Below are positions 211-18,254 of a stretch of DNA of 64,000 nucleotides, in pieces. Numbering within the stretch: position 1 is the stretch's first letter; the number at the start of each line of letters is the position of its first letter. The translations under genes and the position numbers were made by a program. Origin of the DNA: Bradyrhizobium zhanjiangense (GTDB lineage Bacteria > Pseudomonadota > Alphaproteobacteria > Rhizobiales > Xanthobacteraceae); assembly GCF_004114935.1 (NCBI RefSeq), contig NZ_CP022221.1, positions 3,989,001-4,053,000 on the forward strand, read 5' to 3'. The notes beneath the pieces are model-generated. The model was not told the origin of the DNA and made no database searches. It was given only the letters and a program-made list of their open reading frames with translations.

Positions 211-1539
211 GTGTCCGAGATGTCCGGTGCAGCACGATGGTTGGAGCCCGCAGCCGACACGGCTGCGAGGCGGAACGTCTGGCTTGCCTGCCTGATCGCG
301 CTGACTGCGCTGCTGGTGCTCGGCAATCTCGCCAACGACGCCAGGCTCGATGTGAAATATGGCTGGGACGTCCGGGTCAATTGCGCGGCAGTCGATGCGC
401 ATGCCGACGGGCTCGATCCCTATTTCGTCAAGAACCTGAAGGGCACCAAGCTCTCTTATCCCTATCTGCCCGTGACGCTGGACGTCTTCCGCCCCCTGTG
501 CGCGGGCGGCTTTCTGGTCGATCATTACAGAAGCATCTTTCTCGTCCTCGCCGTGATCTGCGGCCTGCTCTTGCCCGGGCTCGGCCGAACGGGCACGAGC
601 GCGCGCGATGCTGCGCTCAAGGTGCTGTGCGCGCTCGGCGCGTTCGTCGGTTTCGAATGGGTGCAGGCGTCGGGGAATTTCGCGATTCTAAGCGGCCTGC
701 TGACCGCGATCGCGCTGTCGCTCCTGCTTCGTCCGCTTCCCTCTGGAGAAAACACGAGCTTTCCCTTGCGCCTTGCCGGCGCTGCACTGCTCGGCCTCGT
801 GACCTCGTTCAAGCTGGTGTTCTGTCCCGTGCTGGCTGCGCTCTATTTCCTGCCGCTGCCGCGCAGTCGCAAGCTGGCGCTGATCGCGATGGCGGCGTTC
901 GGCTTCGCATTGCCGGTCCTGATGTCGAGGCTGCTGTATCCTGATCTGTTCGCGAGTTGGCTGCTTGCAATTGCGGGTCAGATCCCGAACCAGCATGCCG
1001 TCGATCTCGTGGAGATCAATCCGTCGCTGCTGCTGCTGGCGCGGGACCTGATGGACCATGCCGGCCTCGGTGACAGCAGGCTGGCCATGTTCGCGACCTA
1101 TGCGCTCGCAGCACTCGCGCTCGTGCTGGTGCCGTTCGCCCTGTCCGTCCTGCGCGTGGCCGCGAGCCAGCCGGTGCGGGAGGGGGGATCGCTTCTGACG
1201 CGGCTGGATCGCTGGCTGATGGACCAGCCCCGCACGGCCATGCGCGTCACGGTGCTTGCCATGTTTGCGCTCTATCTCAGCTCGCCGCGCCTCAAGGAAT
1301 ATGCCTTCTTCGAGCTCGCGCTCTATGCCGCCATCCTCATCGTCGATCTTCCGGCCATGGCGCTCGCCGGATGTCTCTCGGTCGGTCTGCTCATTCCCGC
1401 ACTGATCTCGCTTCTGGGAGCAGCATTCGAGGGCAGCTTCATTCTCCTCACGGTCGCGCTGATGTGCTTCTGGATCCTGCTGCTCGACTTCCGTGCCGAG
1501 CCGAAACGCCTAGAGCCGCGCATAGTGGAGTCACGTTGA
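211..1539 (+). CDS. GT87/DUF2029-type polytopic glycosyltransferase
   Basis: A 442-residue inner-membrane protein with roughly ten hydrophobic segments, the first at about residues 24-41. The loop after it contains acidic residues and ends in DPYF (69-72), matching the first periplasmic loop of GT87 (DUF2029) enzymes, which transfer sugars from polyprenyl-phosphate donors. A TSFK segment near residue 198 followed by the basic RSRK resembles the family's internal positive loop. The GTG at 211 was taken as start; an ATG three codons later is equally possible. It stands alone, with no other envelope-sugar gene beside it, so acceptor and sugar are unknown. The fold-level assignment is fairly safe; the substrate is not inferred. 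Confidence 0.7.
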   Translation: MSEMSGAARWLEPAADTAARRNVWLACLIALTALLVLGNLANDARLDVKYGWDVRVNCAAVDAHADGLDPYFVKNLKGTKLSYPYLPVTLDVFRPLCAGGFLVDHYRSIFLVLAVICGLLLPGLGRTGTSARDAALKVLCALGAFVGFEWVQASGNFAILSGLLTAIALSLLLRPLPSGENTSFPLRLAGAALLGLVTSFKLVFCPVLAALYFLPLPRSRKLALIAMAAFGFALPVLMSRLLYPDLFASWLLAIAGQIPNQHAVDLVEINPSLLLLARDLMDHAGLGDSRLAMFATYALAALALVLVPFALSVLRVAASQPVREGGSLLTRLDRWLMDQPRTAMRVTVLAMFALYLSSPRLKEYAFFELALYAAILIVDLPAMALAGCLSVGLLIPALISLLGAAFEGSFILLTVALMCFWILLLDFRAEPKRLEPRIVESR

Positions 1540-3591: not shown

Positions 3592-3886
3592 TGGTGCGGG
3601 CGGCCGGACTCGAACCGGCACAGGCCTTGCGGCCCCACGGATTTTCATACCACTTCGGCTTTCGCCGCCGCCCTTTCGGCGTTCGTGGTCTGGACTATCC
3701 CTTCACCCTGGCGCTTGTCCGCTGTAGGTGCTGCCCGTCTAGTCTCTACACCTTCCCCCTGGCGGGGGCTTGGCTCGGGATTGCCAGTGAAGGTTTCCCC
3801 GACTTTGAGCAGTTCTGCTCCTGAAGTTTCCTCCAGGGCACTCAATGGCTTAAGTCCGATGCGTCTACCAATTCCGCCACGCCCGC
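3592..3886 (-). tRNA. tRNA-Leu(UAA), interrupted by a group I intron
   Basis: On the minus strand the 5' exon is 3886-3852 (35 nt, ending with T33-T34 of the anticodon) and the 3' exon is 3645-3592 (54 nt). The acceptor stem pairs GCGGGCG with CGCCCGC, the terminal CCA is encoded, the T arm is GCCGG/CCGGC around TTCGAGT, and the long variable arm pairs GGCC with GGCC around GCAA, as expected for a class II tRNA. Joining the exons gives anticodon loop CTTAAAA with anticodon TAA. The interruption lies between the first and second anticodon bases, the same position as in cyanobacterial and plastid tRNA-Leu genes. Standard finders may miss this gene because of the insertion. Confidence 0.95.
3646..3851 (-). 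ncRNA. Group I self-splicing intron (IC3-like) in tRNA-Leu(UAA)
   Basis: A 206-nt insertion running 3851 to 3646 on the minus strand. The exon end ACUU pairs with GAGU at intron positions 9-12, giving the obligatory U-G wobble at the 5' splice site; UU just before it can pair with the 3' exon's A run (P10). The last intron base is G. Core blocks are visible in order: GGCAATCCCGAGCCAAGC (P/Q region), GTAGAGACTAGACGGGC (R) and AAGGGATAGTCC (S). No open frame for a homing endonuclease fits inside, so it is a minimal ribozyme. Subgroup IC3 is inferred from these core blocks and the insertion site. Confidence 0.92.
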
Positions 3887-3895
3887 ATCGGCCCA

Positions 3896-3924
3896 TCTAT
3901 ACGGCGCAATTGCCCGACGGGCAA
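3896..3924 (-). promoter_or_regulatory. Sigma-70-type promoter of tRNA-Leu(UAA)
   Basis: On the minus strand a TTGCCC -35 (3924-3919) and a TATAGA -10 (3901-3896) are separated by exactly 17 bases and sit immediately upstream of the mature tRNA 5' end at 3886, so transcription should begin about 3-4 bases before the tRNA. The -35 lies within a perfect 7-1-7 palindrome (TTGCCCG, central base, CGGGCAA; 3910-3924). Confidence 0.6.
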
Positions 3925-3961
3925 AGAGAATACAGCCGATTCCGCGCACGATTTGAGCCGC

Positions 3962-4108
3962 TTACCTCAGGGGCTTCAGCTCGGATTCCGTCACGTCCTC
4001 GGCCCTCTGGCATTGCTGCTTTGTTGGCTCTATAGGCGGTTCTTCCTTGAGCGAGTCGGGTGCACGAGGCAAAGCCTCAATCCGGACATCTATTGTTGCT
4101 TTAGGCAT
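3962..4108 (-). CDS. Possible small acidic protein
   Basis: A 48-residue frame from ATG at 4108 to a stop at 3962, between the tRNA promoter region and the lipoprotein gene on the other strand. The sequence (MPKATIDVRIEALP... ending DVTESELKPLR) is hydrophilic with a plausible composition and no low-complexity bias, but no domain is recognised and no strong ribosome-binding site precedes the ATG. Kept only as a candidate. Confidence 0.25.
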   Translation of the reverse strand: MPKATIDVRIEALPRAPDSLKEEPPIEPTKQQCQRAEDVTESELKPLR

Positions 4109-4137: not shown

Positions 4138-4557
4138 ATGGCTGCTTCGTTTTCCTCTTCCCTGCGCTCCTGCAGCGTGCTGCTCGCGGCCGGTGCTTTG
4201 CTGTCCGGCTGCGCCGGCATGAGTGAGACGGTCGCGCCGGCCTTCGCCGATCCCGGCAAATACGAATTGTATGACTGCAAGCAGCTCGAGACCGAGCGCA
4301 AGGCGCTCGCGAACCGCACTGCCGATTTGCAGAAGCTGATGGACAAGGCCCAGACCGGCGCTGGTGGCGCGGTGGTGTCCGAGCTTGCCTATCGCAACGA
4401 CTACATCGCGGCGCGGGGCCAGGCGCAACTTGCCGATGAGGCCTGGCGCCGCAACAGGTGCCGGGAAACACCGCCCGGGCCGACACCGCCCGCCGCGCCG
4501 CCGTCATCCGCGGCCGCTGCCAAGCCGGCGTCGAAATCCGGAAAAGCGATCCGCTGA
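4138..4557 (+). CDS. Predicted lipoprotein, unknown function
   Basis: A 139-residue protein with a lipoprotein signal: a hydrophobic stretch ends in the lipobox LLSGC, so the mature protein should begin at the Cys around position 25 and be anchored in the envelope. The middle (about 40-95) is a charged helical region beginning YELYDCKQLETERKAL, with paired cysteines at about 47 and 105. The tail is rich in Pro, Ala and Lys, typical of an unstructured periplasmic end. Similar short lipoproteins are common in rhizobia and uncharacterised. It is monocistronic and converges on the monooxygenase gene. Confidence 0.7.
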   Translation: MAASFSSSLRSCSVLLAAGALLSGCAGMSETVAPAFADPGKYELYDCKQLETERKALANRTADLQKLMDKAQTGAGGAVVSELAYRNDYIAARGQAQLADEAWRRNRCRETPPGPTPPAAPPSSAAAAKPASKSGKAIR

Positions 4558-4582: not shown

Positions 4583-5785
4583 TCAAGGCCGCCAGTTGTA
4601 GATCCAGTCCTGCCGCGCCAGCATGCGGTCCGGGCCGAGCGCGCGGATCGCAAGATCGCGCGCGATCGCGAGCGGCCCGCTGAAATGATAGATGCGGCCC
4701 TGCTGCCGCGCCGTCCGCTGCACCCGGCGCACGCGCGCCTGGCGCGCGCGGCCATATTGCGTCAGCGCAGCCGTGATGCCCGCGGTGCTCTCGGCCGCCT
4801 CGACGCTCAAATGCCGCGCGAGCACGGCGGCATCCTCGATCGCCATGCCGGCGCCTTGGGCTGCGAACGGCAGCATCGCATGCACGGCATCGCCGAGCAG
4901 CCCGACTGGCCCCTTGCTCCAGGGGCAGCCGTCAGGCACCCCGAACAGCGCCCATTTCCGCCAGGCGTCGACCGGGGCGAGCATCATCCGCGCCGACGGC
5001 GGCCAGCGCGGCGCGGCGAAAGCCTCTATCACCTCGTGGGGATCGCCGGGCGTGCTCCAGCCCGGCCTGTTCCAGGTGCCCGGCAGCACCGCGACCACGT
5101 TGATCTGGCGTCCGCCTGCGATCGGATAGGCCACGAGATGCGCGTTCGGGCCCATCCAGAGCTGCACTCGGCGCGCCGTGTAGTCCTTCGGCAGTTGCGT
5201 CGCATCGAGCGTGCCGCGCCAGGCGATCAGGCCGGAAAAGCGCGGCTGCACTTCGGGGAACAGGTGCTGGCGGACCGTCGACCAGATGCCATCGGCGCCG
5301 ATCAACGCGCTGGCGAGATCGCTGCGGCGGATCGTGCCGCTGCGATGGACCACCGTCAGCCCCTTGGCGTGAGGCGCGACGTCCTCGAAGGTCGCGCCCA
5401 GCTTCAGGTCGATATCGGGATGGTCGGCAACAGCGCCCGCCAGCGCCGATTGCAGATCGGCGCGGTGCACCACCCAATAGGGGGCGCCGGCGCGCGCGGA
5501 GGCTGCTTCGCCGAGCGGCATGCGCAGCAGCTCGCCGCCGGCCCGCGCGCTCATGATCGAGACCGCTTCCGGGATCACGGCGCGCAGCTTGAGGCGTTCG
5601 GTGAGACCGAGCTCGACCAGCACGCGGCTGGCATTGGGGGAGAGTTGCAGGCCGGCGCCGACTTCCTCGAGGCGCTCGGCCTTCTCCAGCACGACGATGC
5701 GGAAGCCGCGGGCCGCGAGCGCAAGCGCGGCCGTCAGTCCACCGATGCCGGCACCGGCAATGACAATCGTTCGGGAGAGCGCCAC
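4583..5785 (-). CDS. FAD-dependent monooxygenase (salicylate/3-hydroxybenzoate hydroxylase-like)
   Basis: A 400-residue class A flavoprotein hydroxylase. The FAD ADP-binding motif GAGIGG is at about 10-15, followed by the acidic end of beta-2 (VVLEKAERLEEVGAG) and the family motif LSPNASRVL; an ADGIWS segment sits mid-protein and the second FAD motif GLLGDAVHAMLPFAAQGAG near residue 290. Such enzymes use NAD(P)H and O2 to hydroxylate aromatic rings. The start is the GTG at 5785, preceded by a purine-rich AGGGG; it lies 19 bases after the zinc-finger gene on the same strand, so the two are likely co-transcribed. No ring-cleavage genes are adjacent, so the substrate is unknown. Confidence 0.85.
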   Translation of the reverse strand: MALSRTIVIAGAGIGGLTAALALAARGFRIVVLEKAERLEEVGAGLQLSPNASRVLVELGLTERLKLRAVIPEAVSIMSARAGGELLRMPLGEAASARAGAPYWVVHRADLQSALAGAVADHPDIDLKLGATFEDVAPHAKGLTVVHRSGTIRRSDLASALIGADGIWSTVRQHLFPEVQPRFSGLIAWRGTLDATQLPKDYTARRVQLWMGPNAHLVAYPIAGGRQINVVAVLPGTWNRPGWSTPGDPHEVIEAFAAPRWPPSARMMLAPVDAWRKWALFGVPDGCPWSKGPVGLLGDAVHAMLPFAAQGAGMAIEDAAVLARHLSVEAAESTAGITAALTQYGRARQARVRRVQRTARQQGRIYHFSGPLAIARDLAIRALGPDRMLARQDWIYNWRP

Positions 5786-17299: not shown

Positions 17300-17629
17300 A
17301 TGACACCTGAAGCTCTCAATACCTTCTTCTCGATCTGCATCGGTTTCGCGCTCGCGGGCGCGCTCGTGAACGGATACCAGGCGGTCGCGCAGCGTCCCGC
17401 CGGCTTCGGCCTGTTACAGGACGGCGTGGCGCCGAAGACCTTCGCGGCGGTGCCGTTCCTGGTCTTCGCGGCGCCCTTCATCATCATGCGCAACACGCTG
17501 CGCGGCATGCGCGTGGAAAGCCGCCGCGCCGAGTTCGTGATGATGGCGACCCTCATCGCCGGCTTCTGGAGCATGATGAGCGGCACCTTCTTCCTGATGA
17601 CGCTGCGCGCAGCCGGCGTGCTGGGCTGA
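17300..17629 (+). CDS. DUF6949-like small membrane protein
   Basis: A 109-residue protein with three hydrophobic segments, at about 8-26 (FFSICIGFALAGALVNGY), 47-63 (FAAVPFLVFAAPFIIM) and 82-105 (MMATLIAGFWSMMSGTFFLM), linked by short charged loops with GMRVESRR on the cytosolic side. It resembles short inner-membrane proteins conserved in rhizobia (DUF6949) with no known function. A CtrA-like box lies 74 bases upstream. The next gene, a gamma-carbonic anhydrase, starts 95 bases downstream on the same strand. Confidence 0.7.
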   Translation: MTPEALNTFFSICIGFALAGALVNGYQAVAQRPAGFGLLQDGVAPKTFAAVPFLVFAAPFIIMRNTLRGMRVESRRAEFVMMATLIAGFWSMMSGTFFLMTLRAAGVLG

Positions 17630-17723
17630 CGCCTCCGGCGCGTTCAGTGCTGCCCGGCCGGGCGACCCTTTGCGTCCAGGCCGCCGTTTCGCTATGCCAG
17701 GATCGTCCTGACAGGAGACCTCC

Positions 17724-18254
17724 ATGGCGATCTACGAGCTCGACGGGCAGGCGCCCGACCTTCCCGCCGACGGCAATTATTTCATCGCGGAGACCGCCAC
17801 CGTGATCGGCCGGGTGCGCCTGAAGCCGGGCGCGAGCGTCTGGTTCGGCGCGGTGCTGCGCGGCGACAATGAGTGGATCGAGATCGGCGAGGGCGCCAAC
17901 GTGCAGGACGGCTCGACCTGCCACACCGATCTCGGCTTTCCGCTTGTCATCGGCAGGAACTGCACGGTCGGCCACAACGTCATCTTGCACGGCTGCACCA
18001 TCGAGGAGGGCGCGCTCGTCGGCATGGGCGCGATCGTGATGAACGGCGCGAAGATCGGCCGCAACAGCATCGTCGGCGCCGGCTCCGTCATCACCGAGGG
18101 CAAGGAGTTCCCCGAGCGCTCGCTGATCATCGGCTCGCCGGCGCGCGTGATCCGCACGCTCGATGACGCCCAGGTCCAGAAGATGGGGAGTGCGGCGAGG
18201 TTCTACGTGGCCAACGGTCCGCGGTTCAACAAGGGCTTGAAGCGGATCGGCTGA
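17724..18254 (+). CDS. Gamma-class carbonic anhydrase-family protein
   Basis: A 176-residue left-handed beta-helix protein built from hexapeptide repeats (IGRVRLKPGASVWFGAV and following turns). Zinc-ligand histidines are present in the expected pattern: CHTDLG around residue 71 and GHNVILHGC around residues 88-94. The family includes gamma carbonic anhydrases and related acyltransferase-like proteins (PaaY, YrdA); catalytic activity is plausible but not guaranteed. The gene has a good AGGAGA ribosome-binding site (17715-17720). Confidence 0.9.
   Translation: MAIYELDGQAPDLPADGNYFIAETATVIGRVRLKPGASVWFGAVLRGDNEWIEIGEGANVQDGSTCHTDLGFPLVIGRNCTVGHNVILHGCTIEEGALVGMGAIVMNGAKIGRNSIVGAGSVITEGKEFPERSLIIGSPARVIRTLDDAQVQKMGSAARFYVANGPRFNKGLKRIG

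Follow-up and report, generated by a model that had tools for sequence, protein, structure and literature searches.

A group I intron in the only detected tRNA-Leu(UAA) gene of Bradyrhizobium zhanjiangense and its probable arrival with the rescue tRNA of an integrative element

Group I introns are found in several bacterial tRNA genes, including cyanobacterial tRNA-Leu(UAA), alphaproteobacterial tRNA-Arg(CCU) and Azoarcus tRNA-Ile(CAU). The excerpts of two reviews (PMC3984707 and PMC4033280) make no mention, for bacteria, of a tie between such split genes and integrative elements. Among the CC-licensed PMC matches listed, the excerpted text likewise did not describe rescue tRNAs with an intron in integrative elements of bacteria.

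Two described systems come closest. Islander islands, as portrayed in the excerpted part of their source (PMC4383910), have a tyrosine integrase, a crossover that is often centred on the anticodon and a displaced tRNA fragment at one end, and these features recur in the elements described below. According to the same excerpt, standard islands restore their target gene (PMC4383910). In the archaeon Caldiarchaeum, the consulted portion of Sugahara et al. describes a tRNA-Thr 5' fragment followed by a recombinase and then an intron-bearing tRNA-Thr (Sugahara 2012, PMC3293823). That portion, after Randau and Soll, raises the idea that introns brought by an element could block further invasion, and proposes that introns which block integration may benefit the element (PMC3293823).

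Here, we describe a split tRNA gene in a 64,000-nucleotide stretch of the B. zhanjiangense genome (NZ_CP022221.1, positions 3,989,001 to 4,053,000; hereafter ‘the window’). It lies at 3592-3886 on the minus strand and encodes, in two separate pieces, a class II tRNA-Leu (Table 1). When 3886-3852 is joined to 3645-3592, ARAGORN recognizes the joined sequence as an 89-nt tRNA-Leu with anticodon TAA, and the joining places the insertion point of the 206-nt intron between U34 and A35. The 5' exon pairs with the intron (ACUU with GAGU) to form P1, with a U.G pair at the 5' splice site, and the intron ends in G. The original prediction, made from the letters alone, had the gene bounds, the joined tRNA, the wobble pair, the terminal G and the insertion site right. 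Its attribution to an alphaproteobacterial host is also supported, and its assignment of the insertion to the group I introns, at minimal size, agrees with the structural evidence that follows.

Table 1. Features of the split tRNA-Leu(UAA) gene and its surroundings (window coordinates).
Feature	Position	Strand	Basis or remark
GT87-like gene, native neighbour on the other side in some relatives	211..1539	+	Name by eye
tRNA-Leu(UAA) 3' exon	3592..3645	-	54 nt including CCA
Group I intron	3646..3851	-	206 nt, final base G; RF00028, tRNA joining, 150-intron set
P9, P9a, P9b	3650..3688	-	Cells paired 542/568, 512/545 and 568/568
P7, pseudoknotted with P3	3693..3744	-	3744-3740 with 3697-3693; 708/708 cells paired, double changes in 3/5 pairs
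P3	3731..3812	-	3812-3807 with 3736-3731; 851/852 cells paired, double changes in 5/6 pairs
P4	3775..3802	-	3802-3798 with 3779-3775; 699/710 cells paired
P1	3840..3855	-	Exon ACTT 3855-3852 with intron GAGT 3843-3840, read from sequence
tRNA-Leu(UAA) 5' exon	3852..3886	-	35 nt, ..GGACTT end at U34
Element-type upstream region of the tRNA	3887..3958	-	Common to split copies elsewhere; promoter-like by eye
Possible remnant of integrase gene 3' end (..ELKPLR stop)	3962..3982	-	16/21 bases as in L142, 15/21 as in L374
Zone where native tRNA-Leu-locus synteny resumes	3996..4041		blastn
Small lipoprotein-like gene, native neighbour of tRNA-Leu(UAA) in Bradyrhizobium	4138..4557	+	tblastn
FAD monooxygenase-like gene, native neighbour	4583..5785	-	Name by eye

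The Rfam model RF00028 matches the intron across its full length (1-253) with 42.6 bits (E 1.3e-9 in a 501-base search). In the whole genome the match has an E value of 5.6e-9, and no second match was found there. The default Rfam scan of the window returned no intron match because 42.6 bits lies below the gathering score of 50 for RF00028. ARAGORN with default settings likewise reported no tRNA. With introns allowed, ARAGORN returned the correct gene bounds, but the ambiguity of the cut point led it to label the gene tRNA-Ser(aga). This mode gave one more call, a tRNA-Ile(gat) interrupted by 162 nt at 17606-17864, which is probably a false positive.

We examined helix conservation in 150 tRNA introns (142 distinct, the window's included), which were aligned by sequence alone and in which the counted helices were named on the window's intron. 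Of 148 introns split automatically, by a rule that demanded a terminal G, 122 interrupt Leu(TAA) after position 34, with a T-G pair there. The non-Leu split sites used further were set by hand, and L199, L280 and L298 were excluded. Across the 142 distinct introns, pairing was found in 566 of 567 cells for P8 and in 89.6 percent for P2. P6a was paired in 58.5 percent as counted, in a register that is one base off, and in 90.8 percent one base over. When the partners of P7 were slid by 1-2 bases as a control, only 8-41% paired, and sliding P3, P4, P7, P8 and P9b by 1 or 2 left 1.6 to 66 percent paired. Changes on both sides occur in 35 of the 49 helix pairs overall. In the window's own intron P3, P4, P7, P8 and P9b pair fully, and its folding energy (z = -3.87) was matched by none of 200 shuffles. 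Covariation across the 142 distinct introns supports the prediction of an intact ribozyme core. The sequence shows a tRNA-Leu(UAA) gene whose anticodon loop is interrupted by a group I intron of 206 nt with an intact structure.

An intact tRNA-Leu(UAA) gene elsewhere in the genome would have spoken against the original prediction. The 9.34 Mb genome, a single contig, contains 45 further tRNA matches to RF00005, and none of the 45 tRNAs that ARAGORN named at these loci is Leu(TAA). The split gene is thus the sole Leu(UAA) gene detected in the genome, and its splicing is therefore needed for the reading of UUA codons. TTA accounts for 8 of the 14,701 codons in the 36 likely genes of the window, in 6 of these genes, so UUA is rare yet used. 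Splicing would be guanosine-dependent, as it is for group I introns generally. The Bartonella tRNA-Arg(CCU) intron has been found to splice both in vivo and in vitro, according to the excerpted part of the report (PMC7717549), which makes splicing of the window's intron plausible.

The window's tRNA occupies the same locus as the native tRNA-Leu(UAA) gene of relatives. A tblastn search found the lipoprotein-like neighbour in 26 of 30 loci with an intact tRNA-Leu(UAA) gene (L344-L373). Loci with an intact tRNA match the window from 3996 (L386), 4000 (L380), 4037 (L378) or 4038 (L385) onward, and L375 matches it from 4041 onward. On the other side, the distance between the GT87-like gene and the tRNA is about 70 bp in L380 (intact) and 2 kb in the window.

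The tRNA itself differs from the native gene, which reads ..AAGGGACTTAAAATCCC.. where the window gene reads ..ATCGGACTT/AAAATCCG... By blastn, window positions 3592-3935 or 3592-3958 match L377 (93.9%), L379 (94.0%) and L375 (94.0%), and positions 3592-3983 match L374 at 90.1%. L377 and L379 have no other long match to the window's first 12 kb. At these loci the split tRNA-Leu lies away from the same genomes' intact native tRNA and adjoins a CAP12/Pycsar-type TIR gene and an E1/E2-like gene, and a nodU-like gene.

The short segment at 3962..3982 is no more than suggestive of an integrase gene tail. No orphan tRNA half was found in the window or its genome, tblastn found no integrase similarity in the 19 kb around the gene (L387), and no integrase of the element family described below was found near the gene or in its genome. 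We therefore call the window locus a remnant, not an element, and read its history from relatives. It looks like a settled remnant, with a split tRNA and element-type upstream DNA placed at the native locus.

In relatives, the native tRNA-Leu(UAA) gene is cut in its anticodon region, as in B. lablabi (L374) and genomes G398 (L375), G311 (L383), G213 (L056), G160 (L059) and others. We inspected 12 loci listed by a tRNA-Leu 5'-half pattern that itself includes the nonamer GACTTAAAA. At each of the 12 junctions, similarity to the native gene breaks off 0-3 bases past GACTTAAAA, in the anticodon loop, and the next 75 bases contain no T-arm. L374, L375 and L383 have a common layout in which the cut native tRNA is followed by an integrase gene (426, 459 and 440 codons, respectively), then a split tRNA-Leu and then cargo. 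The cargo includes an MmeI-like restriction-modification protein, a DNA methylase and an AAA ATPase with a subtilisin-like protease.

The orphan 3' half of the native gene was found in five of the ten genomes searched. In G087 and G213 it lies about 38 kb and 34 kb downstream, respectively, on the same strand; in G236 it follows two split copies; and in G317 and G398 it is on a different contig. It was not found in the window's genome and the four others. Joining the halves gave an intact tRNA-Leu(taa) in 4/4 genomes tried (G317, G398, G213 and G236), with the halves of G317 and G398 coming from different contigs. Within the patterns used, no intact native gene was seen in G317, G398, G311, G087, G213 or G236.

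The association extends beyond these genomes. Of 98 split tRNA-Leu(UAA) loci whose upstream DNA was long enough, 31 have GACTTAAAA upstream in the same orientation (24 of them with the tRNA-Leu 5'-half pattern), and none has it there on the opposite strand. Downstream, it occurs on the same strand in 0/83 loci and on the opposite strand in 1/83. The contrast is significant (Fisher 4.5e-10), in a set of loci that are not all independent and include the same or near-identical elements. The 67 of 98 loci without an upstream nonamer may be settled remnants or have another history.

A tblastn search with three integrases matched 41 of 222 loci, several of which are the same place twice or partial remnants. 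A motif scan identified an integrase-like frame within 700 bases upstream of 22 of the 150 introns, for which the upstream context was often short. PHROG integrase families matched all five element integrases tested (E 2.6e-30 to 3.8e-25), Pfam matched one of three, below its cut-off, and NCBIfam matched none of five. Residues R271, R367 and Y399 are invariant in 18 aligned integrases.

A second layout has no integrase between the junction and the tRNA (L056, L059, L120, L155 and others), and an integrase was not located in these four loci. Two of them come from distant hosts: L120 (Eoetvoesiella, a betaproteobacterium) and L155 (Lysobacterales, a gammaproteobacterium) have 5,896 bp in common at 99.9%. 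Past the nonamer, the two do not differ over at least 3,000 bases, and 126 of the 400 bases before it agree.

These introns resemble the known group I introns of bacterial tRNA genes in their core helices P1-P9, the U.G pair at the 5' splice site, the terminal G and the anticodon-loop site. What sets them apart is the link of the entire split gene to integrative elements by which the native gene is destroyed. Unlike the Islander islands, as excerpted (PMC4383910), the target is still cut at 12/12 inspected Leu(UAA) junctions and a separate, complete, intron-split tRNA gene is supplied. The Caldiarchaeum case, in the portion consulted (PMC3293823), concerns an endonuclease-removed archaeal intron, one tRNA locus and a 1.8 kb insertion, whereas the bacterial elements have ribozyme introns, are found at many loci, leave both halves in several genomes and span tens of kb. 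The ribozyme-based bacterial version is a variant of the archaeal idea as given in that portion (PMC3293823).

The junctions suggest how these elements may work. The integrase would recombine a core of ~9-12 nt, GGACTTAAAA[TC], which corresponds to the anticodon stem-loop of tRNA-Leu(UAA). Integration leaves the native 5' half at one element end and the 3' half at the other, and the native gene is thereby destroyed. The element supplies a complete tRNA-Leu with an intron, and the reading of UUA would be restored after splicing. Since the intron would split the attachment core, the rescue gene would be no target for its own integrase or for a second copy, with the tRNA still functional. Later, the window would have lost the native halves together with the integrase and kept the rescue gene.

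Sequence comparison makes it well supported in the relatives, and we infer for the window, that the split gene is the rescue tRNA of an integrative element and not the product of a homed intron. A mobile-element origin of the whole split gene, which the original prediction did not contain, is thus likely. The joint reading, in which the split gene must splice, arrived as the rescue tRNA of an element and has an intron that masks the attachment core, is one that we hold with good confidence.

A broader claim is that some of the group I introns of bacterial tRNA genes serve to mask attachment sites. Integrative elements and temperate phages that destroy a tRNA gene would carry a replacement with a self-splicing intron in its anticodon loop, invisible to the integrase as DNA and whole as RNA; on this claim our judgement is evenly balanced. 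Two loci with another tRNA are consistent with it. In the Gordonia phage Daredevil (L318), an integrase gene is followed 400 bp on by a free CGGACTTTTAATCCGC and 170 bp further by a split tRNA-Lys(UUU), whose intron splits that same CGGACTTTTAATCCGC. At L038, a cut tRNA-Lys(UUU) lies about 270 bp before a split tRNA-Lys(UUU). No free core was found for 12/12 viral-contig introns or for one of the two from phages, so masking leaves the majority of phage tRNA introns in our set unexplained.

The alternative that survives best accepts the element but not the mask. The rescue tRNA would have been taken from an intron-bearing gene and would have kept its intron by descent only, an account that we regard as a serious contender while leaning slightly against it. 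It is favoured by the placement of most split rescue tRNAs in one broad intron family, and by rescue tRNAs that have no intron. The latter came from an integrase-anchored search of 385, 296 and 398 genomes, which yielded 37 loci, partly the same places as before.

In 12 of the 37 loci, a Leu(UAA) core upstream is combined with a split rescue tRNA downstream. In one of these 12, L400, the upstream copy continues into a tRNA-like 3' end and hence is not simply cut. Another 11 loci have an intact tRNA upstream (ten Met, one Arg), and 10 of these 11 are without a rescue gene. The stretches of 8 loci contain neither a rescue gene nor an intact tRNA, and one of these is at a contig end. From these counts, a separate rescue gene goes with leucine targets. 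The same integrase family adjoins an intact tRNA-Met(CAU) in the ordinary restoring layout at L402, L404, L406, L407, L409, L410, L429-L431 and L433, and L410 has a second tRNA-Met downstream.

Six of the 18 rescue tRNAs in the 37 loci lack an intron, and one of them has an unaltered core, which argues against strict necessity of the intron. This one, L422, retains the full core GGACTTAAAATCC and thus fits descent alone. The other five carry core or stem changes, which count against it: base 30 is changed in L414 and L423, base 32 is changed in L421 and L432, and L403 (Leu-UAG) has a changed stem. A core base is therefore altered in four of the five intron-less Leu(UAA)/Leu(CAA) rescue genes, and 17 of the 18 rescues have an intron or a core or stem change. 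Core bases are kept in 12/12 intron-bearing rescues (5' exon) and 1/5 intron-less ones (Fisher 0.002), a contrast that is confounded because P1 of the intron needs A31, C32, U33 and U34. Descent alone also sits poorly with Daredevil, where a different integrase and a different tRNA show the same arrangement, and with L038, where the arrangement recurs at a different tRNA and the intron groups with that of L243 and with an Azoarcus intron.

Another alternative is that the intron homed into a native tRNA-Leu gene. At the native locus in Bradyrhizobium, some split tRNAs (L034, L035, L036 and L042) do have an anticodon stem that resembles the native one. An intron part in an uncultured huge phage (L320) encloses, by eye, an HNH-like reading frame, which also speaks for homing. 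We nonetheless judge it improbable here. The window's tRNA body and about 70 bp upstream match split copies elsewhere and not the native gene; the 206-nt intron is too small for a homing endonuclease; and the cut native tRNA, the integrase and the split tRNA adjoin in genomes of the same genus.

The distribution of the introns bears on a third account, vertical inheritance of an ancient tRNA-Leu intron common to cyanobacteria. The original prediction had described tRNA-Leu introns as reported more rarely in proteobacteria. Such rarity was not supported: a single narrow 3'-junction pattern matched at least 118 stretches in named genomes, and the matches listed come from alpha-, beta- and gammaproteobacteria, Acidobacteria, Bdellovibrionota and one Chloroflexi bin. 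Eight of the resolved introns among the matches listed are in tRNA-Leu(CAA). These introns (L109, L118, L133, L140, L152, L167, L184 and L190) are related, come mostly from betaproteobacteria and have a C-G pair at the 5' splice site in place of U.G.

Closer to the window, RF00028 matched in 32 of 296 genomes of the family, under strict filters that lose weak matches. Of the 29 loci fetched from the family, three are tRNA-Arg(CCU), one is tRNA-Lys(UUU) and most are tRNA-Leu(UAA). Among 146 genomes of the genus, the intron pattern was found in 21, an intact-site pattern in 127, both in 4 and neither in 2. The intact-site pattern allowed up to one mismatch and ends three bases past the loop, so cut copies match it too; two of the four genomes that match both patterns, G317 and G398, have cut copies. 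All 30 intact-pattern loci fetched contain a whole tRNA-Leu(taa). The window's genome has the intron pattern only.

In an intron tree of 152 rows, in which the bootstrap had not settled and many branches are open, the introns of the window and of Bradyrhizobium genosp. SA-3 show no difference over 201 columns. The window's intron nests in a starred set of 11 rows that contains Bradyrhizobium, Afipia and others of the family. Gammaproteobacterial introns and one Sphingobium intron fall inside a mostly betaproteobacterial clade of 52 rows. The Anabaena intron, a single sequence used as the outgroup, is on a long branch.

Vertical inheritance draws on the insertion point between U34 and A35, which we take to be that of the cyanobacterial and plastid tRNA-Leu(UAA) intron. 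The patchy occurrence within the genus, the tRNA body unlike the native gene and the near-identical element in a beta- and a gammaproteobacterial host all count against it, and the intron tree suggests disagreement with the host tree. We consider this account very unlikely.

Similar introns were also seen on viruses and plasmids. An uncultured huge phage (L319) has a tRNA-Leu(UAA) with a 205-nt intron. Viral contigs L243, L278, L282, L286, L298, L280 and L199 have intron-split tRNAs of other kinds, among them Lys(CUU), Arg(UCU), Gln(UUG) and perhaps Tyr and Thr. The window's split tRNA matches 1276 of 72,556 plasmid records, of which five were inspected. Three, L313 (pCTX-M3), L314 and L315, come from Citrobacter, Escherichia and Acinetobacter; on each of them a tRNA-Leu(UAA) interrupted by a group I intron is no more than about 2.2 kb away from aac(3)-IId. 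In L313, the sequence that begins at the core GGACTTAAAA is 84-86% similar to the left end of the L056/L059 elements. The other two are Bradyrhizobium plasmids. On the B. elkanii plasmid pUSDA76 (L316, 4900-5261), an intron and 3' exon without a 5' exon form a relic, preceded by part of an integrase-like frame.

That the window's gene is a dead pseudogene or an artefact, as a score below the Rfam cut-off and blank default scans might suggest, is scarcely credible given its fully paired P3, P4, P7, P8 and P9b, its standing as the sole Leu(UAA) gene found in the genome, the presence in a second Bradyrhizobium genome of an intron that is the same over 201 columns, and the contrast with the L316 relic, which has lost its 5' exon.

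The reading of the split gene as an element's rescue tRNA has several consequences. If introns also act as attachment-site masks, settled rescue genes such as the window's would explain part of the patchy occurrence of tRNA-Leu introns in proteobacteria. Masking of the attachment core offers a reason why self-splicing introns are located in the anticodon loops of bacterial tRNA genes and why they are so patchy. The old proposal that introns shield tRNA genes from integration thereby becomes testable in bacteria. Split tRNA genes of this type are overlooked by default annotation, and elements of this sort could escape island finders that are built on target restoration.
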